64,000 nucleotides of DNA from Janthinobacterium sp. GW458P (GTDB taxonomy: Bacteria; Pseudomonadota; Gammaproteobacteria; Burkholderiales; Burkholderiaceae_D). Both the position numbers and the translations under genes were made by a program. The stretch's first letter is position 1. Each line of letters begins with the position of its first letter. This document shows positions 5,631 through 53,486 of this stretch, one piece after another. Where the stretch lies: assembly GCF_002127585.1 (NCBI RefSeq), contig NZ_NEGZ01000002.1, positions 62,001 to 126,000 of the forward strand. The letters are read 5' to 3'. The notes beneath the pieces were generated by a model. It was not told the DNA's origin. It saw only the letters and a program-made list of their open reading frames with translations, and ran no database searches.

Positions 5631-5714
5631 AAAAAACGTCCAGGGCCAGGCGCCCAGCCGAAGACAGTACGCACTACGGCGAGGCGCAGGCAACGCCGCC
5701 CTGGGCGTTTTTTA
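5631..5714 (-). repeat. Family A structured repeat, single copy
   Basis: An 84-bp imperfect palindrome. The left arm AAAAAACGTCCAGGGC pairs with the right arm GCCCTGGGCGTTTTTT with one mismatch, around a core containing CAGTACGCACTACGG. It overlaps the stop codon of the minus-strand gene at 5712. Arms ending in A-runs and T-runs make it look like a bidirectional terminator. Related copies are at 31900-31981 and four in tandem at 50581-51016. Confidence 0.75.
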
Positions 5715-12532: not shown

Positions 12533-13366
12533 ATGCTTAAAGTCGACCTGCATTGTCATTCGAATATCTCCGACGGCGTGCTGTCACCGGCCGCCGTGGC
12601 TGCGCACGCCCGCAAGGCGGGCGTCGACGTGTGGGCGCTGACGGACCACGATGAAGTATCGGGCGTCGCCGCCGCGCGCGCGGCCGCGCTGGACCTGGGC
12701 ATGCGCTTCGTGGCCGGCGTGGAAATTTCCATTACCTGGGCCGGCGAAACCGTGCACATCGTCGGCTTGCAAGTCGATGAAAACAATCCCGGCCTGGTGC
12801 AGGGCTTGCACCAGACTCGTTCGGGACGCGACGCGCGCGGCCGCGAGATTGCCCGCCAGCTGGACCTGGCCGGCATCCCCGACGCCTATGAAGGGGCCTT
12901 GAAATTCGTCGGCAACCCGGACCTGATGTCGCGCACGCATTTCGCCCGCTACATCGTGGAAACGGGCAAGTGCGCGAACATCCCCGACGTGTTCAAGAAA
13001 TACTTGTCCGAAGGCAAGCCTGGCTATGTCGAGCACCGCTGGGCCACCCTGGCCGAAGCGGTCGGCTGGATACGCGGCGCGGGCGGCGTGGCCGTCATTG
13101 CCCATCCGGGCCGCTACCGCTTCAGCGACATGGCGCAAGGCGTGCTGTTCGATGAGTTCAAGCAATTGGGCGGCGTGGCCATCGAAGTCGTCACAGGCAG
13201 CCACAGTCCGGACCAGTATCCGGAATATGCGCAACTGGCCAACGCCTACGGCTTCCTCGCTTCGCGCGGCACGGATTTCCACGCGCCGGGCGAGTCGCGC
13301 GTGGATTTTGCCATGCTGCCGCCGCTGCCGTCGAATGTCACGCCCATCTGGCACGACTGGTTCTAG
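12533..13366 (+). CDS. rnm: 3',5'-nucleoside bisphosphate phosphatase / RNase AM, PHP family
   Basis: A 277-residue PHP-domain enzyme. The metal-binding motifs appear in order: VDLHCHSNISDG at the N-terminus, TDHDEVSG, AGVEIS, VIAHPGRY and GTDFHAPG. The family (E. coli YciV, and a Chromobacterium homologue characterised as a 3',5'-bisphosphate phosphatase) removes 5' nucleotides from short RNAs and trims the 5' ends of 5S and 23S rRNA. Its usual neighbour yciO is found two genes downstream, with htpX inserted between. A family B repeat starts seven bases after the stop codon. Confidence 0.9.
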   Translation: MLKVDLHCHSNISDGVLSPAAVAAHARKAGVDVWALTDHDEVSGVAAARAAALDLGMRFVAGVEISITWAGETVHIVGLQVDENNPGLVQGLHQTRSGRDARGREIARQLDLAGIPDAYEGALKFVGNPDLMSRTHFARYIVETGKCANIPDVFKKYLSEGKPGYVEHRWATLAEAVGWIRGAGGVAVIAHPGRYRFSDMAQGVLFDEFKQLGGVAIEVVTGSHSPDQYPEYAQLANAYGFLASRGTDFHAPGESRVDFAMLPPLPSNVTPIWHDWF

Positions 13367-13372
13367 CTGAGA

Positions 13373-13483
13373 GCCAGGCAAATCTGCTGCGCGGCGCGCT
13401 TTGCGGCCGGCGATGCTCACCGTACCCAGTACGGTTGCGCTTCTCGGCCACAAATCACTGCCGCTCGCGACGATTTTCCTGGC
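13373..13483 (+). repeat. Family B structured repeat, copy 1
   Basis: A 111-bp element just after the rnm stop. The ends GCCAGGCAAATC (13373-13384) and GATTTTCCTGGC (13472-13483) are inverted repeats. An inner hairpin ACCGTAC-CCA-GTACGGT is flanked by the conserved segments GCGGCCGGCGATGCTCAC and TTGCGCTTCTCGGCCAC. The same architecture with different arm sequences recurs at 21295-21426 and 37613-37743, with a shortened form at 31827-31886. It always reads in the direction of the gene whose 3' end it follows. Confidence 0.8.
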
Positions 13484-13513
13484 TGCCGATGCGCTGGCGT
13501 ATTGCCATAGCTG

Positions 13514-18910: not shown

Positions 18911-18926
18911 AGTGCAGGGTGCTAAA

Positions 18927-19181
18927 TTACTTAGCAGCCGATGCAGCAGCCGAAGCAGCCGAAGCAGCGTCGGTAGCGGCCGAAGCGGCAGCCGAAGCAG
19001 CAGCAGCAGCGTCGGTAGCGGCCGAAGCAGCAGCGTCAGCAGCAGCAGCTGGAGCAGCTTCAACTGCTGGTGCTGGTGCTGGGGTTTCAACTACTGGTGC
19101 TGGTGCAGGAGCTTCTTCTTTTTTGCTGCAAGCAGCCAGAGCAACAACCATCAGGGAGGCGATCAGCAGGGATTTTTTCAT
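18927..19181 (-). CDS. Small alanine-rich lipoprotein, 84 residues
   Basis: Signal peptide MKKSLLIASLMVVALAAC with lipobox ALAAC (Cys18), then SKKEE and an Ala/Pro stretch (APAPAPVVETPAPAPAVEAA). The last 45 residues are almost pure Ala with Ser, Asp and Thr in a repeating AASAATDAA pattern. This would form a long helix, much like Lpp-type or periplasm-spanning lipoproteins. AAGGAAAAC gives a good ribosome site. The gene is isolated, with a long AT-rich upstream region and its own terminator, consistent with strong independent expression. The low-complexity DNA is prone to slippage, so length may vary between strains. Confidence 0.8.
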   Translation of the reverse strand: MKKSLLIASLMVVALAACSKKEEAPAPAPVVETPAPAPAVEAAPAAAADAAASAATDAAAAASAAASAATDAASAASAAASAAK

Positions 19182-20749: not shown

Positions 20750-21295
20750 ATGAAGATTGCCAAGAATACGGTCGTGACTGTCAACTACAAACTGTCAGAC
20801 GCGCAAGACAATCTGATCGAAGATGGCCGCCAGCCTATGGTCTACCTGCATGGTGATTATGAAAACACCCTGCCGAAGATCGAAGAAGAGCTCGACGGCA
20901 AGGAAGTTGGCTACTCCAACACGATCCAGATCGAACCGGATGATGCTTTCGGTGAATACGACCCAGCCCTGGTCAAGGTAGAGCCGCGCAATCGCCTGCC
21001 TGAGCCGCTGGAAGTGGGCATGCAGTTCGAAGGCATGCCGGAAAGCGATTCGCCGGACGAAGAAGCGATGATCTTCACCGTCACCGATATCGCCGACGAC
21101 AAGGTCGTGCTGGACGGCAACCATCCACTGGCCGGCATCGCGCTGCGCTTCTCGCTGACCGTCGCTGACGTGCGCGCAGCCACCGACGAAGAAATCGCCC
21201 ATGGCCACGTGCATGGCGCGCATGGCCACGACCATGGCGATGATGAAGATGAAGGCGAAGAGGGCGATCACTTCCGCACCCACCCAATCCACTAA
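20750..21295 (+). CDS. slyD: FKBP-type peptidyl-prolyl isomerase SlyD
   Basis: A 181-residue cytosolic prolyl isomerase and chaperone with metal binding. MKIAKNTVVTVNYKLSDAQD starts the FKBP domain. The insert-in-flap chaperone domain spans roughly residues 70-125, and the C-terminal tail is His- and acid-rich (HGHVHGAHGHDHGDDEDE), as used by SlyD to bind nickel. AAAGGAAG precedes the ATG; the longer frame from 20720 is not needed. The stop codon abuts family B repeat copy 2. Confidence 0.95.
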   Translation: MKIAKNTVVTVNYKLSDAQDNLIEDGRQPMVYLHGDYENTLPKIEEELDGKEVGYSNTIQIEPDDAFGEYDPALVKVEPRNRLPEPLEVGMQFEGMPESDSPDEEAMIFTVTDIADDKVVLDGNHPLAGIALRFSLTVADVRAATDEEIAHGHVHGAHGHDHGDDEDEGEEGDHFRTHPIH

Positions 21296-21426
21296 CACCT
21301 GACCAAACCTGCTGCGCGCGGCGGGGCGCGGCCGGCGATGCTCACCGGCTCGGCGCCCCCGTACTTACGTACGGTTGCGCTTCTCGGCCACGCCGCGCCG
21401 CTGCTCGCGACGGTTTTGTCAGGCGT
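21295..21426 (+). repeat. Family B structured repeat, copy 2
   Basis: A 132-bp element starting on the last base of the slyD stop codon. Outer arms ACACCTGACCAAACC and GGTTTTGTCAGGCGT are inverted repeats. The inner hairpin is CCGTAC-TTAC-GTACGG, with the same conserved flanks as copy 1 (GCGGCCGGCGATGCTCACCG and TTGCGCTTCTCGGCCAC). It has the same direction as slyD. Confidence 0.8.
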
Positions 21427-31720: not shown

Positions 31721-31826
31721 CAATTCCTATGTCGGATAGATTCCACAAGGCAAAAAAACGCTAACCGTGGCCGGCTGGCGCTGCAAACCCCCGAAGGAAG
31801 AAAATATGTTTTTCAACGATGCTGCG

Positions 31827-31886
31827 ACACCTGACAAAATCATCGCCGGCCGTAAAGCGCGCCGCGCAGCCGGTTTGCTCAGGTGT
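31827..31886 (-). repeat. Family B repeat, internally shortened copy
   Basis: A 60-bp derivative bounded by ACACCTGA and TCAGGTGT. Read on the minus strand it keeps the left part of the element, through GGCCGGCGATG, and then jumps directly to the right end ATTTTGTCAGGTGT, so the inner hairpin region is missing. It lies just beyond the family A copy that follows the receptor gene and has the same direction as that gene. Confidence 0.65.
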
Positions 31887-31899
31887 TACTGCCGGTGCT

Positions 31900-31981
31900 A
31901 AGAACGTCGAGGGCGAGGCGCCGCGCCGAAGACAGTACGTACAGTACGGCGAGGCGCGGCAACAACGTGCTGGACGTTTTT
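31900..31981 (-). repeat. Family A structured repeat, single copy
   Basis: An 82-bp element with AAGAACGTC and GGACGTTTTT at its ends and CAGTACGTACAGTACGG in the core. It overlaps the stop codon of the minus-strand TonB receptor, the same placement as the copy at 5631-5714. Arms differ from the other copies but still pair. Confidence 0.75.
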
Positions 31982-37612: not shown

Positions 37613-37743
37613 ACGTCAAATTAAACCGTAGCGAGCGGATGGGAGGCTCGGCGCCCCCGTTGGCCCGAGAAGCGGAGCTGTGCGGATGCACAGTGAGCAT
37701 CGGAGGCCGCAAATCGCGACGCGCAGTCGGTTTGGTTTGACGT
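37613..37743 (-). repeat. Family B structured repeat, copy 3 (between the cphA genes)
   Basis: A 131-bp element starting 10 bases past the stop of the shorter cphA. Arms ACGTCAAATTAAACCG and CGGTTTGGTTTGACGT pair. On the minus strand the inner hairpin is CTGTGC-ATCC-GCACAG, unlike the CCGTAC/GTACGG of the other copies but still paired. The conserved flanks TTGCGGCCTCCGATGCTCAC and GCTTCTCGGGCCAAC are recognisable. Confidence 0.8.
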
Positions 37744-37753
37744 TTCTGGTTTT

Positions 37754-39931
37754 TCAATTCCCGATGCAGCCGGGGGCCGCGTCGAAGGTGCGCAAGCCGG
37801 CGCAAATCAGGTCGACGGGCAGGTTCAGGGCCCAAGCGGCGGCCGCGACGGCCAGCACGCTGTCGACATTGCCGGCCGTGGCCGGTTTCAGCAGGTCCAG
37901 GCACAGCAGGACCGTTTCGATGCCGCCTTCGGCCAGCACGATGTGGTTGCCGCGCACAAACACGGCGCGCTGGCCGGCGGCCAGCTGTGCCGCGAGGGCC
38001 GGCAGGCTGCCATCCTGCGCATACAGGGTCACCGTGCCGTCGCACAGTTCGGCCAGTTCCAGCACGTGGGCGTTGGCGGCGTTGAGCACGGCCACGCCGG
38101 TCGGCACGACCACGTCGACCTGGCTGCGCACGGCCTTGTACAGGCCCGCCTCGTCCAGCACGTCGAAATCCTTGATGCTATCGAGGCTGCCCATGTCCGT
38201 GACGATGCCGACCTGGCACTTGTCGTAGGCCAGGCCTTCGGCCAGGATCATGCGCGGATTGCTCTCGAACAGGGCCGTCTGCACGGTGCGGTTGAGCAGC
38301 AGGCGCTGGCCCGCGTCCCAGTTCACGCAATCGTTGCTGACGACGCGGCGCTGGTCCAGGTACATGCCTTCGCTGCAGACGGCGCCCGTGTGCAGGCCCG
38401 ACAGGTTGAGCAGCTTGCACAGCATGCGCACGATCAGGCTGGCGCCGCGCGTGCCCGTCACGCCGATCAGCGGAATGCGGCCCGTTTCTTCGGCAGCGAA
38501 CAGGTGGTCGACGATGGCCGCGCCGACAGGGCGGGGCTGGCCCACGCCCGGCTTGATGTGCGCCAGCAGGCCGGGGCTGGCATTGACTTCGATGATGGCG
38601 CCGCGCTGTTCTTCCAGCGGACGCGTGATGTCGGTGGTGACCAGGTCGATGCCGGCGATATCGAGGCCCACGACCCTGGCGGCCAGCAGGGCCGCATGCA
38701 CGACGGACGGGTGCACGTCGTCGGTGACGTCGATAGCCACGTTGCCGTTCGGCTGGATCAGCACTTTCTGGCCCGATTGCGGCACGGACAGGGCGGTCAT
38801 GCCCTGGCGCTGCAGTTCCAGCACGATTTCGCCCGACTCGTGCGGCTTGACGGTGCCCAGCGGGAAATCTTCGCCTTCGCCGCGGCGCGGATCGGTATTG
38901 ATCTGCGTGTTGACCAGTTCCAGCACGGTGGACACGCCGTCGCCGTCGACCCACAGGGATTCGCCCTTGGCGGCCGCGATCAGCTTGTTGCCGACGACGA
39001 GCAGACGGTGCTCGTCGCCCGTGATGAAGCTTTCCACCAGCACGGCCGAACTGTCGCCCTTGCGCGCGGCCAGTTCATAGGCTGCCTTGACGTCGCTTTC
39101 TGTCATCAGGTTCAGCGACACGCCGCGGCCGTGGTTGCCGTCATACGGCTTGACGACGACGGGCACGCCGATGTCCTGCGCTTCTTCCCAGGCCGCTTCG
39201 GCGCTGCGCACCAGGCTGCCTTCGGGCACGCGCACGCCGCACGATTTGAGCAGGAATTTGGTGAGATCCTTGTCGCTGGCGATGCCTTCGGCAATCGCGC
39301 TGGTGCGGTCCGTTTCGGCCGTCCAGATGCGGCGCTGCGCGGCGCCGTGGCCCAGCTGCACCAGATTGCCGTCGTTCAGGCGCAGGGAAGGGATGCGGCG
39401 CTCGGTGGCCGCATCGACGATGCTCGCCGTGCTCGGGCCCAGGCAGCGCGAATCGACCATGTCGCGCAGCGGCGCCAGGGCCGCCTCCAGGTCGTAGGCT
39501 TCATCATTGATGGCGGCCATCAGCAGTTCGCGCGCGGTCGCCAGGGCAGCGCGGCCCACGTGCTCTTCGCGCGTGCGGAAGGCCATCTTGTAGACGCCGC
39601 GCTGGCTGGTCGAGCGCGTCTGGCCGAAGCCCGTGCGCATGCCGGCCAGGTTTTGCAGTTCCAGCACCACGTGTTCGAGGATGTGGGCCGACCATGTGCC
39701 TTCGCGCAGGCGCTCGAAAAAGCCGCCCCGTTCGCCCACGCCGCAGCGGTGCTCGATCATGCCGGGCAGCCACGCCACCAGGCGCTCGTACAGGCCGGGC
39801 AGGGTATTCGATGGATAGTCTTCCAGTTCGCCGATATCGACCCAGGCTTCAATCACCGGGCGGTAAGTCCAGATGTTGGGGCCGCGCAAGTGGGTGACGC
39901 GGACGAATTCGATGTTCTTCTTCTTGATCAT
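37754..39931 (-). CDS. cphA: Cyanophycin synthetase paralogue with degenerate Mur-ligase domain
   Basis: A 725-residue homologue of the downstream gene. The N-terminal domain (IEFVRVTHLRGPNIWTYRPV) and ATP-grasp domain (VVKPYDGNHGRGVSL; IIEVNASPGLLAHIKPG) look intact. The Mur-ligase P-loop reads GVTGTRGASLIVRML near residue 490, lacking the Lys-Thr-Thr of GTNGKTTT, and the protein ends about 130 residues short, without the C-terminal lobe. This matches the pattern of CphA2/CphA'-type enzymes, where ATP-grasp chemistry is kept and the Mur-ligase half is not; cyanobacterial CphA2 joins Asp-Arg dipeptides. The precise activity here is inference. Confidence 0.9.
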   Translation of the reverse strand: MIKKKNIEFVRVTHLRGPNIWTYRPVIEAWVDIGELEDYPSNTLPGLYERLVAWLPGMIEHRCGVGERGGFFERLREGTWSAHILEHVVLELQNLAGMRTGFGQTRSTSQRGVYKMAFRTREEHVGRAALATARELLMAAINDEAYDLEAALAPLRDMVDSRCLGPSTASIVDAATERRIPSLRLNDGNLVQLGHGAAQRRIWTAETDRTSAIAEGIASDKDLTKFLLKSCGVRVPEGSLVRSAEAAWEEAQDIGVPVVVKPYDGNHGRGVSLNLMTESDVKAAYELAARKGDSSAVLVESFITGDEHRLLVVGNKLIAAAKGESLWVDGDGVSTVLELVNTQINTDPRRGEGEDFPLGTVKPHESGEIVLELQRQGMTALSVPQSGQKVLIQPNGNVAIDVTDDVHPSVVHAALLAARVVGLDIAGIDLVTTDITRPLEEQRGAIIEVNASPGLLAHIKPGVGQPRPVGAAIVDHLFAAEETGRIPLIGVTGTRGASLIVRMLCKLLNLSGLHTGAVCSEGMYLDQRRVVSNDCVNWDAGQRLLLNRTVQTALFESNPRMILAEGLAYDKCQVGIVTDMGSLDSIKDFDVLDEAGLYKAVRSQVDVVVPTGVAVLNAANAHVLELAELCDGTVTLYAQDGSLPALAAQLAAGQRAVFVRGNHIVLAEGGIETVLLCLDLLKPATAGNVDSVLAVAAAAWALNLPVDLICAGLRTFDAAPGCIGN

Positions 39932-49892: not shown

Positions 49893-50537
49893 ATGAGCGA
49901 TTTTCCCGAAGATATCTACACCGAGCCGTCCGTTGACGTGCACACGCTGAACAACCTGGGCCCATTGACCGGCATGGCCGGCATCTGGACGGGCACGCGC
50001 GGCCTGGACGTCAAGCCGAAAGCCGACGGCCCGCGCAAGCAGGCCTTCGTCGAGCGCATCGAGCTGCAGCCTATCGACCCCGTCACCAACGGCCCGCAAC
50101 TGTTCTACGGCTTGCGCTACTACATCCACATCACCAAGCCGGACCAGGTCAAAACCTACCATGAGCAAGTCGGTTACTGGCTGTGGGAGCCGGCCACGGG
50201 CGCCGTGATCCAGACCCTGGCCATCCCGCGCGGCCAGATCGCCATGGCGTCGGGCACGACGACGGCGGACGCCACCAGTTTCGAACTGGTGGCCAAACGT
50301 GATTCGACGGCCTACGGCATCTGCTCGAATCCCTTCCTTGAACACGCGTTTACCACCGTCGAATACCGCATCAAGGTCGACATCCACGCCGACGGCAGCT
50401 GGGGCTATGACGAAGACACGGTCATGCTCATTCGCGGCAAGGATGAACCGTTCCACCACACGGACCGCAACCTGCTGACGAAAATCGGCGAGCCGACGCC
50501 GAATCCGATGGCCTTGCAGGCGCTGGCGGCGGTGTAA
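49893..50537 (+). CDS. Nitrobindin-like heme-binding beta-barrel protein
   Basis: A 214-residue protein of the FABP-like/nitrobindin type (formerly DUF1794). PLTGMAGIWTGTRGLDVKPK matches the family's Gly-x-Trp-x-Gly start of the barrel. Repeated beta segments follow: LFYGLRYYIHITKPDQVKTY, QVGYWLWEPATGAVIQTLAI, and the end region RIKVDIHADGSWGYDEDTVM. Known members bind ferric heme or fatty-acid-like ligands; some isomerise peroxynitrite. No signal peptide. Heme binding here is by family only. The gene has 76 bases of leader and is followed by the repeat array. Confidence 0.8.
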   Translation: MSDFPEDIYTEPSVDVHTLNNLGPLTGMAGIWTGTRGLDVKPKADGPRKQAFVERIELQPIDPVTNGPQLFYGLRYYIHITKPDQVKTYHEQVGYWLWEPATGAVIQTLAIPRGQIAMASGTTTADATSFELVAKRDSTAYGICSNPFLEHAFTTVEYRIKVDIHADGSWGYDEDTVMLIRGKDEPFHHTDRNLLTKIGEPTPNPMALQALAAV

Positions 50538-50542
50538 AAATC

Positions 50543-50568
50543 AAAAAGCGGCGACTTTTGCCGCCGCT
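50543..50568 (-). terminator. Terminator facing the repeat array
   Basis: AGCGGCG (50547-50553) pairs with CGCCGCT (50562-50568). On the minus strand it is followed by TTTTTGATTTTTA. It would stop transcripts of the zinc-finger gene that pass through the repeat array. On the plus strand it lacks a T-run. Confidence 0.6.
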
Positions 50569-50580
50569 CTGCTGGAGCGC

Positions 50581-51016
50581 CTGAAAAATGCTCAGGGCTA
50601 GGCGCGTTGCCGCAGGCAGTACGAACGTACGGCCAGGCAAGGCAACAACGCCATGGGCTTTTTCTCAGGTCTTTTGTCGCCGCTCTGCTGGAGCGCCTGA
50701 AAAATGCTCCGGGCTAGGCGCGTTGCCGCAGGCAGTACGAACGTACGGCCAGGCAAGGCAACAACGCCATGGGCTTTTTCTCAGGTCTATTGTCGCCGCT
50801 CTGCTGGAGCGCGTGAAAAATGCTCCGGGCTAGGCGCGTTGCCGCAGGCAGTACGAACGTACGGCCAGGCAAGGCAACAACGCCATGGGCTTTTTCTCAG
50901 GTCTTTTGTCGCCGCTCTGCTGGAGCGCCTGAAAAATGCTCAGGGCTAGGCGCGTTGCCACAGGCAGTACGAACGTACGGCCAGGCAAGGCAACAACGCC
51001 ATGGGCTTTTTCTCAG
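50581..51016 (-). repeat. Four tandem copies of family A, 116-bp period
   Basis: Cores of 88 bp at 50581, 50697, 50813 and 50929 alternate with 28-bp linkers (starting GTCTTTTGTCGCCGCTCTGC). Each core starts CTGAAAAATGCTC and ends GGGCTTTTTCTCAG, with GCAGTACGAACGTACGG in the middle. Copies differ at only a few positions, so the array is recent or homogenised. The last copy ends seven bases before the stop codon of the minus-strand zinc-finger gene. The 486 bases from 50538 to 51023 hold no gene. Confidence 0.9.
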
Positions 51017-51023
51017 GTGCTCC

Positions 51024-53486
51024 TTAAGGTTTGCCTTGCGCGACGGCCTTAATCGCGCGCTCCTCTCCCATGGCGGCAGCGATCTTCCAGCGCTGCATGG
51101 CGCTGTCGCGGTCCGGGCGCTTCAAGCCGGCGCCTTCCCAGTCCATCAGGCCCAGGTTGTAGATGTCGCCCGCGCTGCCCTTGTCAGCGGCCAGGGTGAA
51201 CCATTTGCGCGCTTCCTTATGGTTGACGGGAAACTGGTAGCCGCGCACGTGGTACAGGCCCAGCAAATGCATGGCTTGCGCATTGCCCTTGTTGGCCGCC
51301 TGCTTCAGCAGGTCCAGGCCGCGCGCCATATTGCGCGGCTCCTGCCAGCCTTCGGCCAGCATCACGCCCTTTGCCGTCAGCGCGTAGCTGTCGTTCTTCA
51401 CCAGGCCCTTGCCGACCAGGGGCTTGGCGGCCACCTGGCGCGCCTCGCGCTGGCGCGCCGTCGGCGCCGTGACGGGGCCGTTCTGGCCTTCGCCCATCAG
51501 CAGCATCCAGCCATACAGGCCATACGCGCCCGCGTCGCCCTTGCCGACCAGGCTTTCCAGCATGGCCAGCGCCTGCGTCTTGTCGCCATTTTCATACAGT
51601 TTGACGGCCCTGGCGCTGCTTGCGTCCGGCGGCACGGTGGCCGGTGCATGGGGCGCGACGGGCGCCGAGGCCATGGCCGTTTGCGGTGGCGCAGAAGCGG
51701 GACGCACGCGCGCGGGCAAGCCATAGCTGGCGGCCAGCACGGCGACGCTGGCGGGCGCCAGGATCAGCACGTGGGCCAGCTGGTTGCGGCGGCCCTTGCC
51801 GGCGATGCCCATGGCCCGTGCGGCCTGCTGCTGGCCGCCCAGCGCCTCGCTCAGCACGTTCTTGACCTTGCGGTTGAACAGCCAGTAGCCGGCGCCCGCG
51901 ACGAACAGGCCGGCGACGGCGGCCGCACCGCGCCCTGCGAAGAACCAGGCGGCGATGGCGGCGGCCAGGGCGGCCAGCGCGCTTTTCCACCAGAACTGCT
52001 TGGCCAGCCGCGTGTAGACCTGGCGCAAGGCACCGAGCACGCAGGTGCGCACATTGTTGGCATACTCGGCGGAGACGACATCGACGTGGGCGTGGTCCGC
52101 GTCGCCGCTGAGGACAGACTCGATCACGTCCGCATTCAATTCCGATGCGGCCACGTCGCGCAGCGGCGTCAATAAGCCCTGGACGTGGGCCGAGAACAGG
52201 CCGTCGTCGGCGCTGCCGGCCAGCGCGTCGCTGAGCGCCTTGAGGTCGCCGCGCAGCAGCTTTTCCACGATGTCGTCCAGGGTCAGCCAGCGCAAGTCCG
52301 TGCCGTACGCCACCAGGTGGTGCTTTTCCCCGTTGCAGGCGGCGTCCAGGCGCACGATGCGCAGCTTGCCCCCGTACAGGGCGTCGACTTCCTGCGGCTG
52401 GTCTTCATTGTAGATGCTCACTTTCGCCAGGGCCAGGCTGCTGGCGATGGCTGCCAGTGAGTGCACGCTCTCCTTGTCGCGGATGCGGCGCGCGTCGTCT
52501 GGCGCCTGCTTGGGCAGGCTGACGCTATAGCCGGGCGCCACGTGCACGTCGATCCAGGCCGCCTTGCCCACCTTGCCGGAACCGTCGCACGGGTTGCAGC
52601 GCAGGTCGCCCGCGCCGCTGCAGGTGCGGCAGGTGACCTTGCCGCTGGCGCGGCAGGTGGCGCAATTGATGTTGCCGGAACCGTGGCAGGTGTTGCACGT
52701 GACCTTGCCGAAGCTGCAATGGTAGCAATTGCGGTGCTCGGTGCGGTACTGCGTGCGCGTTTCGCTGTGGTAGCTGGTGTGCGAGCTGCCGTTGCTGTAG
52801 GTGGTAGTGGGTACTTGCACCGTCACGTAGTCGGTGACTTGTTCGGCCACCGTGCCGTTGCCGTTGCAATACGAGCAGGAGACCTTGCCGCTGCCGTAGC
52901 AGCCGTAGGCGTCGCAGCTGACGGTGCGCCCGCCGTGGCAGGTCCAGCACGTTTCCGTGGTCAAGCCGTGGCAGGTATGGCAGCCGATGCGGCCTTTGCC
53001 GGAACAGGCGCTGCAGGTATCGAGGTGCCAGTACTTGACGGCGTGCGGCAGGTAGATGCCCGCCTCGATGCCGTTGTAGGCCTGGCCCGGCTGGCGCAGG
53101 GCGGCGTCAAGCTTGCCTGCCGCGCGGCGCAGCCTTTCCTTCTCCTGCGTGTGAGCGAGCGCTCCCACCTCGTGGGAGCCACAGCGGCAGTCATTTCCCG
53201 CCGGCGCAAAATAGCCATTGATGACGCGCTGCTCGAAGCGCGCCTCGAGCGCGTAATTCGCCTGCAGCGAAAAATCCTGCAGCACGTCTTCCTCGCCCAG
53301 CGGCGTGATGTCCTGCGGCTCGAAACGCGTCTTGTCCTGCACCAGGGTGCGCAGCTTGCCCAATACGGTGGGGATGTCCTCTTTGCCGAGCTTGAGGGGC
53401 GCTGGCGCCGTCGCGGCCGTCTCTGTCACCTGCGGCGCAACCTCGCTGCCTGGGGTTTCATGGGCCGTCTCGGTGCTGGAGTTCAT
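51024..53486 (-). CDS. DnaJ-type zinc-finger array / membrane / Sel1-repeat protein
   Basis: An 820-residue protein with a rare layout. Residues 1-155 are soluble and include a CRCGS segment (100-103). Residues 158-304 hold two blocks of five DnaJ-like cysteine pairs each: CSAC, CHTC, CWTC, CDAYGC, CSYC, then a Ser/Thr/Tyr-rich insert of about 45 residues, then CYHC, CNTC, CATC, CRTC, CNPC. A middle soluble domain (305-500) follows, then three hydrophobic segments (ALAALAAAIAAWFFAG; AAVAGLFVAGAGYWLF; VLILAPASVAVLAASYG) and C-terminal Sel1/TPR-like repeats (AMHLLGLYHVRG; GDIYNLGLMDWEG). No J domain. Function unknown. Confidence 0.8.
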   Translation of the reverse strand: MNSSTETAHETPGSEVAPQVTETAATAPAPLKLGKEDIPTVLGKLRTLVQDKTRFEPQDITPLGEEDVLQDFSLQANYALEARFEQRVINGYFAPAGNDCRCGSHEVGALAHTQEKERLRRAAGKLDAALRQPGQAYNGIEAGIYLPHAVKYWHLDTCSACSGKGRIGCHTCHGLTTETCWTCHGGRTVSCDAYGCYGSGKVSCSYCNGNGTVAEQVTDYVTVQVPTTTYSNGSSHTSYHSETRTQYRTEHRNCYHCSFGKVTCNTCHGSGNINCATCRASGKVTCRTCSGAGDLRCNPCDGSGKVGKAAWIDVHVAPGYSVSLPKQAPDDARRIRDKESVHSLAAIASSLALAKVSIYNEDQPQEVDALYGGKLRIVRLDAACNGEKHHLVAYGTDLRWLTLDDIVEKLLRGDLKALSDALAGSADDGLFSAHVQGLLTPLRDVAASELNADVIESVLSGDADHAHVDVVSAEYANNVRTCVLGALRQVYTRLAKQFWWKSALAALAAAIAAWFFAGRGAAAVAGLFVAGAGYWLFNRKVKNVLSEALGGQQQAARAMGIAGKGRRNQLAHVLILAPASVAVLAASYGLPARVRPASAPPQTAMASAPVAPHAPATVPPDASSARAVKLYENGDKTQALAMLESLVGKGDAGAYGLYGWMLLMGEGQNGPVTAPTARQREARQVAAKPLVGKGLVKNDSYALTAKGVMLAEGWQEPRNMARGLDLLKQAANKGNAQAMHLLGLYHVRGYQFPVNHKEARKWFTLAADKGSAGDIYNLGLMDWEGAGLKRPDRDSAMQRWKIAAAMGEERAIKAVAQGKP

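Follow-up and report, generated by a model that had tools for sequence, protein, structure and literature searches.

Palindromes at the ends of genes have been familiar since the REPs, but it is difficult to decide whether their structure plays its role as RNA or as DNA. NEMIS/Correia, ERIC and other palindromic MITEs are short intergenic near-palindromes with conserved terminal repeats and a TA target duplication, and internally deleted forms of them occur. The attC sites are imperfect hairpins behind a stop codon; their polarity is fixed, their bottom strand folds and structure is kept more than sequence. REPs, according to PMC3733652, are extragenic palindromes present in many copies, between co-directional as well as convergent genes; conv-REPs lie less than 20 bp from ORF 3′ ends, REPs at times provide the stop codon, their stems carry complementary changes and the authors take GT pairs as a sign of RNA function. 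Recognition by TnpA-REP is described in excerpts of PMC8266576 as strand-specific, the E. coli enzyme needing a bulge and requiring the tag GTAG on the cleaved strand. REPINs are a folded repeat population whose copy number varies between genomes (PMC3116915).

Here we describe a dispersed element of about 118 nt from Janthinobacterium, made up of one hairpin of some 36–44 pairs. Among the papers listed on palindromic, intergenic or miniature inverted-repeat elements of Janthinobacterium and Massilia, none describes it in its title or the opening lines of its abstract. The element had been noticed in a sequence-only reading as a structured repeat with covarying arms behind stop codons; that observation is confirmed, structure and placement both being real and family-wide, and a reading of the element as a structure of the mRNA is disfavoured. 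With more than 200 copies whose arms vary freely yet remain paired, RNA and DNA can be told apart by counts made separately for the two strands, and these counts give the mRNA no advantage.

Copies in the window and their paired structure

The window is the whole stretch of DNA analysed, 64 kb of the Janthinobacterium genome. Copy 1, a full-length element on the + strand (13372–13484; 129.4 bits with the covariance model), has a predicted fold in which the 5′ outer arm AGCCAGGCAAATC (13372–13384, +) pairs with the 3′ outer arm GATTTTCCTGGCT (13472–13484, +), and its inner hairpin CCGTAC-CCA-GTACGG (13420–13434, +) appears in both the sequence and the predicted fold. A PHP-family phosphatase gene (12533–13366) precedes it, with the stop (13364–13366) 3 nt before the model's arm start. 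This gene had been taken for rnm, a name that fits less well than another: the match to RNase RNM is 266 bits (cut-off 375) and that to 3′,5′-nucleoside bisphosphate phosphatase 421 bits (cut-off 400). Copy 2 (21296–21426, +; 109 bits) abuts the TAA (21293–21295) of a slyD-like peptidylprolyl isomerase gene, whose best NCBIfam match reaches 113.5 bits, below the cut-off of 174, and has an extra GC-rich module at about 21345–21358. Copy 3 (37613–37743, −; 93.5 bits), with its inner hairpin at 37678–37693, lies 10 nt past the stop (37754–37756) of a cyanophycin-synthetase-type (cphA) gene (37754–39931, −). Copy 4 (31816–31891, −; 34.2 bits) is an internally deleted 76-nt form that keeps its outer arms, and four relatives (G062, G025, G021 and G004) have a full-length element at its site. 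The three copies that had been named earlier, with the arms cited for them and the inner hairpins CCGTAC/GTACGG and CTGTGC/GCACAG, are all present, and their RNA folds lie far below those of shuffled sequences (z of −4.65 for copy 1, −5.04 for copy 2, and −3.80 and −5.16 for the two strands of copy 3).

Some further repeats were seen in the window. The GC-rich module GGCTCGGCGCCCC (21345–21358 and 37645–37658) is present in some copies only, before the inner hairpin or after it, giving a form of about 147 nt. Five tandem 116-nt repeats at 50439–51134 form a separate repeat family, 43-nt relatives of which are found at 5632–5674 and 31900–31942, one of them adjoining the deleted copy 4 (31816–31891). 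Low-complexity repeats spaced by 9 or 12 nt at 18924–19076 probably lie within a coding region.

By blastn the genome holds 43 copies. A covariance model built from 45 copies (R1) finds at least 148 matches in it, a lower bound since 150 of 5633 candidates were scored. We analysed 136 copies, a minimum for this genome; these were kept from 190 rows after leaving out opposite-strand echoes and the partial duplicate L012:3001–3107, and three weak short matches to R1 (C72, C90 and C1) stand outside the set. We used several alignments: A2, of 45 copies from this genome, in which one copy stands for the tandem array of three in L011; A6, 39 of those 45, used for the structure of the opposite strand; A4, of 121 copies from the same genome as A2; A5, of 85 copies from named Janthinobacterium congeners; and A7, of 29 copies from other genera. 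The tandem array itself (L011:1484–2068) has three copies, and the 5′ arms of the second and third no longer match the shared 3′ arm.

The consensus structure of A2 has 36 pairs, and 94.4% of its cells pair (85.7% when shuffled). Both sides have changed with pairing kept in 20 of these 36 pairs (133 cells versus 29.8 shuffled), including 11 of the 13 pairs of the outer helix and four of the six of the inner hairpin, and the covariation score is 0.275 versus 0.117; none of 500 shuffles reached the observed pairing, double-change or score value. Sliding the partners by 1–3 columns lowers pairing to 33–42%. The structure of the opposite strand (A6) is 95.6% paired, with double changes at 19 of 38 pairs. 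Compensatory change in the arms and inner hairpin, as the sequence-only reading had proposed, is thus clear in the 45 copies, in the 39 read on the opposite strand and in 24 loci of other genera; the covariance-model search of the genome and its relatives returned many copies, and covariation persists with more of them. It is also seen within loci: copies behind orthologues of the PHP gene have CCGTAC/GTACGG, CTGTAC/GTACAG or CTGTGC/GCACAG as inner hairpin, depending on the species, and at the cphA locus one species has TGTG/CACA and others TTTG/CAAA. Such compensatory changes could also arise by template switching between the arms, and alone are no proof of selection.

Around the two internal loops and the inner hairpin lie conserved blocks, in mRNA-strand letters CTACTGCGCG, CTGCGATGCTC, GCTGCGCTTCTC and CCGCTCGCTACG, and within the genus the outer arms have a loose consensus in common. 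Faster evolution of arms than of core within a locus was not clearly seen (5′ arm, core and 3′ arm of 0.090, 0.058 and 0.000 for seven PHP orthologues, and of 0.042, 0.057 and 0.058 for six cphA orthologues).

Placement at stop codons, spread and turnover

By scoring for coding stops within −12 to +10 nt of the start of the 5′ arm, using ORFs called by a codon-usage score trained on 34 genes of the window, we found 107 of the 136 copies to be stop-adjacent, compared to 26 of 3000 positions drawn at random; for intergenic points of the window, with point and strand both chosen at random, the figure is 74 of 4000. Placement is therefore not random relative to genes, and the earlier statement that all copies follow a stop codon was too strong, 29 of the 136 lacking a coding stop. 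The distance is exactly +2, the mode, in 39 of the 107 copies and between −1 and +5 in 94, and the stops used are TAA (48), TGA (37) and TAG (22). Among the named congeners 65 of 82 copies are stop-adjacent, 82 being those of the 85 aligned copies that had enough upstream DNA to score. In a few cases the distance is −8 and the arm itself supplies the stop (6 of the 107 copies in this genome, 8 of the 65 in named congeners). Of the 29 copies that lack a coding stop, 14 have TAA, TAG or TGA 0–3 nt before the arm, as against 1, 4, 7, 6 and 3 in five control windows, which suggests a DNA-level motif at the element's left edge. The possibility that the stop codon forms part of the palindrome was set aside: pairing beyond the arms is 3.79 versus 3.65 for shuffled flanks (sd 0.07, highest of 200, 3.84). 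Placement is also polar; using windows of ±12 nt on the forward and −20 to +30 on the reverse strand, 85 copies have a same-strand stop only, 12 an opposite-strand stop only, 15 both and 24 neither.

At E≤1e-8, R1 has matches in 56 of 116 genomes and 31 of 44 genera of the family, which we take to be Burkholderiaceae in GTDB; Janthinobacterium accounts for six of the 56 genomes and one of the 31 genera. Of 21 low-copy genomes from 13 other genera, 14 have a single match at E≤1e-6, a pattern that resembles a site kept in place more than an element that spreads. From the low-copy genomes 29 copies were aligned, and 24 were realigned without structure guidance. These 24 loci keep the blocks CTaCTGCGCg, cTGCGATGCTC, GTAC....GTAC, cTgCGCTTCTC and ccGCTCGCtACG (capitals at least 90%, small letters at least 70% identity), and beyond the innermost pair no arm column reaches 90% identity. 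The arm pairs are Watson–Crick in 16–24 of the 24 loci, most of them with three or more pair types. Distant copies have sequence blocks in common and arms that are unrelated yet complementary. At 20 of 27 distant loci inspected the longest upstream ORF stops −4 to +8 nt from the arm. Fifteen upstream ORFs were scanned: 10 scored above the NCBI cut-off (NuoD, PstB at two loci of one genus, two acyl-CoA thiolases, AhpC, 2-methylcitrate synthase at two, SucB and GroEL) and five below it (NADP malic enzyme, Kup, a B12 receptor and two FadB-type dehydrogenases, their ORFs being cut by the end of the locus).

The occupancy of orthologous sites differs between species. In 30 genomes the PHP locus is filled in 14, three of these with an internally deleted form, and empty in 16; the cphA locus is filled in seven of 30 and empty in 23; and for the slyD locus, again in 30 genomes, filled and empty states are both present among the matches listed. 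The element is therefore gained and lost as well as structured, and the contrast drawn earlier, of a selected structure more than a decaying transposon, was too sharp. Internally deleted forms are seen in L233, L243, L244 and L274. At the PHP locus two unrelated arm pairs occur, each self-complementary and each immediately behind the stop. At slyD, PHP and cphA, where the nearest relatives differ by a few per cent or more, we recognised no target duplication. Insertion into pre-existing terminator hairpins was considered and rejected, since empty sites were seen without the arm sequences; a small hairpin in G012 (L258), considered as an empty target, has a loop that resembles both core ends and, by eye, reads as a deletion form.

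Three further observations concern individual sites. At the pstB end of one genus, different species have unrelated arm pairs (L431, L433 and L434 versus L437), like the Janthinobacterium PHP locus. At L339:12083–12216 and its orthologues a copy sits directly behind an intrinsic terminator. In G021 the L339-type copy is cleanly absent; the direct repeats TTTTGTTGGG bound the missing stretch, and the 3′ arm is one of the two.

Evidence on the strand that folds

Selection on the upstream mRNA should leave G·U pairs in large excess over A·C mismatches on the mRNA strand. At pairs shared by the folds of both strands, G·T:A·C on that strand was 19:31 in A2, 55:88 in A4, 11:53 in A5 and 18:32 in A7, unlike the RNase P control with 43:5; these wobble cells are not independent events. 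Scored by the way in which each shared pair leans, the ratios are 8:8 (A2) and 10:9 (A4), so that the result is weak per pair in this genome, and 1:13 (A5) and 4:14 (A7), with 24:1 for RNase P. Thus none of the four sets shows a preference for G·U on the mRNA strand, and two of them clearly favour the other strand. One column pair of the 24 loci from other genera is A·C on the mRNA strand in 21 and G-C in two, and hence is G·T or G-C on the opposite strand.

We rest the strand claim on pairs common to both folds because counts on a structure chosen for one strand are biased. Structures chosen on the opposite strand give 132:29 and 240:64 for that strand, and the wrong strand of RNase P likewise gives 107:45. 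An alternative sense-strand fold of A2 (41 copies) gives 85:31, a result of its including one column pair with T·G in all 41. A first count on the pairs of R1 had given 35:38 for A2, 91:143 for A4 and 57:77 for A5, with 128:6 for RNase P. The control comprises 15 of 30 RNase P loci, from 15 genomes of the order, 41 genomes having had a match; tRNA was given up as a wobble control with two usable tRNAs, and RNase P was used instead.

Predicted energies point the same way. The opposite strand folds to the lower energy in 171 of 182 copies (79 of 85 in A4, 69 of 73 in A5 and 23 of 24 in A7); A2, with 40 of 41, comes from the same genome as A4 and is not added. For RNase P the opposite strand is lower in none of 15 loci and the own strand is chosen in all 15. 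With DNA parameters the opposite strand is lower in 84 of 85 (A4) and 72 of 73 (A5). The strand tests used copies of ordinary length (41 of 45 in A2, 85 of 121 in A4, 73 of 85 in A5, and 24 of 29 in A7, where two near-identical pstB copies were also dropped). In the window the DNA energies predicted for opposite and mRNA strand are −39.2/−31.8, −47.9/−46.0 and −33.5/−32.6 kcal/mol for copies 1–3, a modelled margin that is clear only for copy 1. The opposite strand carries an exact GTAG, the tag required by E. coli TnpA-REP, in 91 of 121 copies of A4, 69 of 85 of A5 and 22 of 29 of A7.

Taken together, the wobble counts and the better folding of the opposite strand disfavour a structure of the mRNA. 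They suggest that, like REPs and attC sites, the element works as a DNA strand that has folded; a single-strand DNA hairpin is favoured, short of proof. Of the earlier proposal of a selected RNA or DNA structure, a structure kept through change at non-random places stands, and its sense as upstream mRNA does not. Counting GT pairs on each strand would also test the RNA reading given to the families of PMC3733652.

An mRNA element would be a hairpin in the 3′-UTR of the upstream transcript, with an effect on how ribosomes are released, how stable the mRNA is or how RNases cleave it. The tight spacing of 94 of the 107 stop-adjacent copies and their preferred polarity speak for it, as do the upstream genes in distant genera (nuoD, pstB, sucB, ahpC, groEL and 2-methylcitrate synthase among them), the 85:31 of the one sense-strand fold and the finding of PMC12306157 that in E. 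coli a REP lying within 15 nt of the stop reduces translation. Given the excess of A·C over G·T at shared pairs in all four sets, the R1 counts, the column pair just described and the better folding of the other strand, we consider such an element unlikely, though far from negligible.

Antisense transcription over the 3′ end of the upstream gene, yielding a structured RNA, would agree with the better-folding strand and with the purine-rich conserved internal loops that this strand carries. However, in the orientation of the copy, 67 of the 136 lie between co-directional genes and only 40 before a convergent gene (18 lie between two reverse genes and 11 are placed otherwise or cut), so that there is no common source of antisense transcription; Rfam, moreover, gave no match for the window and 17 loci at the gathering score, nor for one distant copy at E≤1. 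We regard this as quite improbable.

Still more doubtful is a palindromic transposon in decay, in which mutation by template switching keeps the two arms matched with no selection for structure. It would yield simultaneous compensatory changes, and internally deleted forms do exist, but it predicts no strand bias, against the better folding of one strand in 171 of 182 copies, and correction would erase the internal-loop mismatches that are kept, with the blocks, in the 24 loci from 12 other genera.

A proposed mobile hairpin and its relation to known systems

We tentatively place first a dispersed, non-autonomous REP/MITE-like DNA hairpin of about 118 nt whose mobiliser lies outside the element, an explanation to which we give something close to an even chance. 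The working form would be a folded single strand, complementary to the mRNA of the upstream gene. The blocks around the two internal loops and the inner hairpin would be read as sequence; the outer arms and mid-stem would be needed solely as stem and would drift with compensation. A trans-acting single-strand enzyme, with a Y1/RAYT-type HUH transposase as the candidate, would copy or move the element, which would insert next to the stop codon at the 3′ ends of genes and favour one orientation. Movement as single-stranded DNA, the kind of enzyme and the reason for the targeting of stops are what we infer here. With its very tight placement behind stop codons (mode +2 nt) and its presence in 31 of the 44 genera examined, the element offers a defined substrate for finding the placing enzyme.

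Several findings argue against this REP/MITE-like hairpin. The genome has two Y1_Tnp genes, and at least one is present in all 40 congeners searched, including those with 0–3 copies of the element (some of them incomplete assemblies), so Y1_Tnp presence does not track copy number; and no copy was found in 31 Y1_Tnp loci with about 1.5 kb of flanks (E≤0.1), a subset of at least 96 places listed. The lack of a recognised target duplication, ends that are the least conserved part, the single matches in low-copy genomes and the failure of one query copy to find a blastn match in plasmid and phage collections weigh in the same direction. Within an orthologous locus, evolution of the arms is not clearly faster than that of the core, which leaves this explanation without an account of how paralogous arms diverged.

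A family-wide, strand-specific hairpin with its own mobiliser would account for the element otherwise: a conserved core of about 88 nt, targeted to the stop codons of housekeeping genes, would have locus-specific self-complementary arms made at insertion or rebuilt later. We hold this to be rather unlikely. If true, it would be a separate kind of hairpin element that uses gene ends as its target, neither REP, MITE nor attC.

The remaining explanations are best met in comparing the element with known systems. An integron-like attC site or relic seems very improbable. The element resembles attC hairpins by analogy in its place behind a stop, its polarity, the better folding of the opposite (bottom) strand and the keeping of structure over sequence, with arms that vary with compensation; however, the integron integrase model TIGR02249 scored above cut-off in none of 40 congeners, copies are dispersed over the chromosome behind housekeeping genes with no cassette array seen, and the outer arms of the 24 loci have neither a column at 90% identity beyond the innermost pair nor the conserved cleavage triplet column of an attC core site. 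We give as little credence to an intrinsic transcription terminator, a stable hairpin at gene ends that also occurs between convergent genes, because only 5 of 136 copies have a TTTT in the 10 nt that follow the 3′ arm and a native terminator-like hairpin persists downstream of the element at slyD and cphA.

Palindromic MITEs share with the element an intergenic near-palindrome with internally deleted forms; unlike theirs, its ends are the least conserved part. No target duplication was recognised at slyD, PHP or cphA. Like REPINs, it is a folded repeat whose copy number differs between genomes, but it does not consist of two inverted REPs and, in contrast to a REPIN–RAYT system, had no copy in the 31 Y1_Tnp loci. 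Like members of the REP/BIME GTAG superfamily, it occurs in many extragenic copies near ORF 3′ ends (107 of 136). It differs from them in being one hairpin of 36–44 pairs and about 118 nt where a REP has 20–40 bp, in carrying its GTAG inside the hairpin, below 13–15 bp of outer arms, where that of a REP is terminal, in its strong single polarity and in that none of the copies tested had a RAYT next to it. By its length, its additional arms, its polarity and the missing linkage to a RAYT it falls outside the REP family; by analogy, it may well work like a REP.
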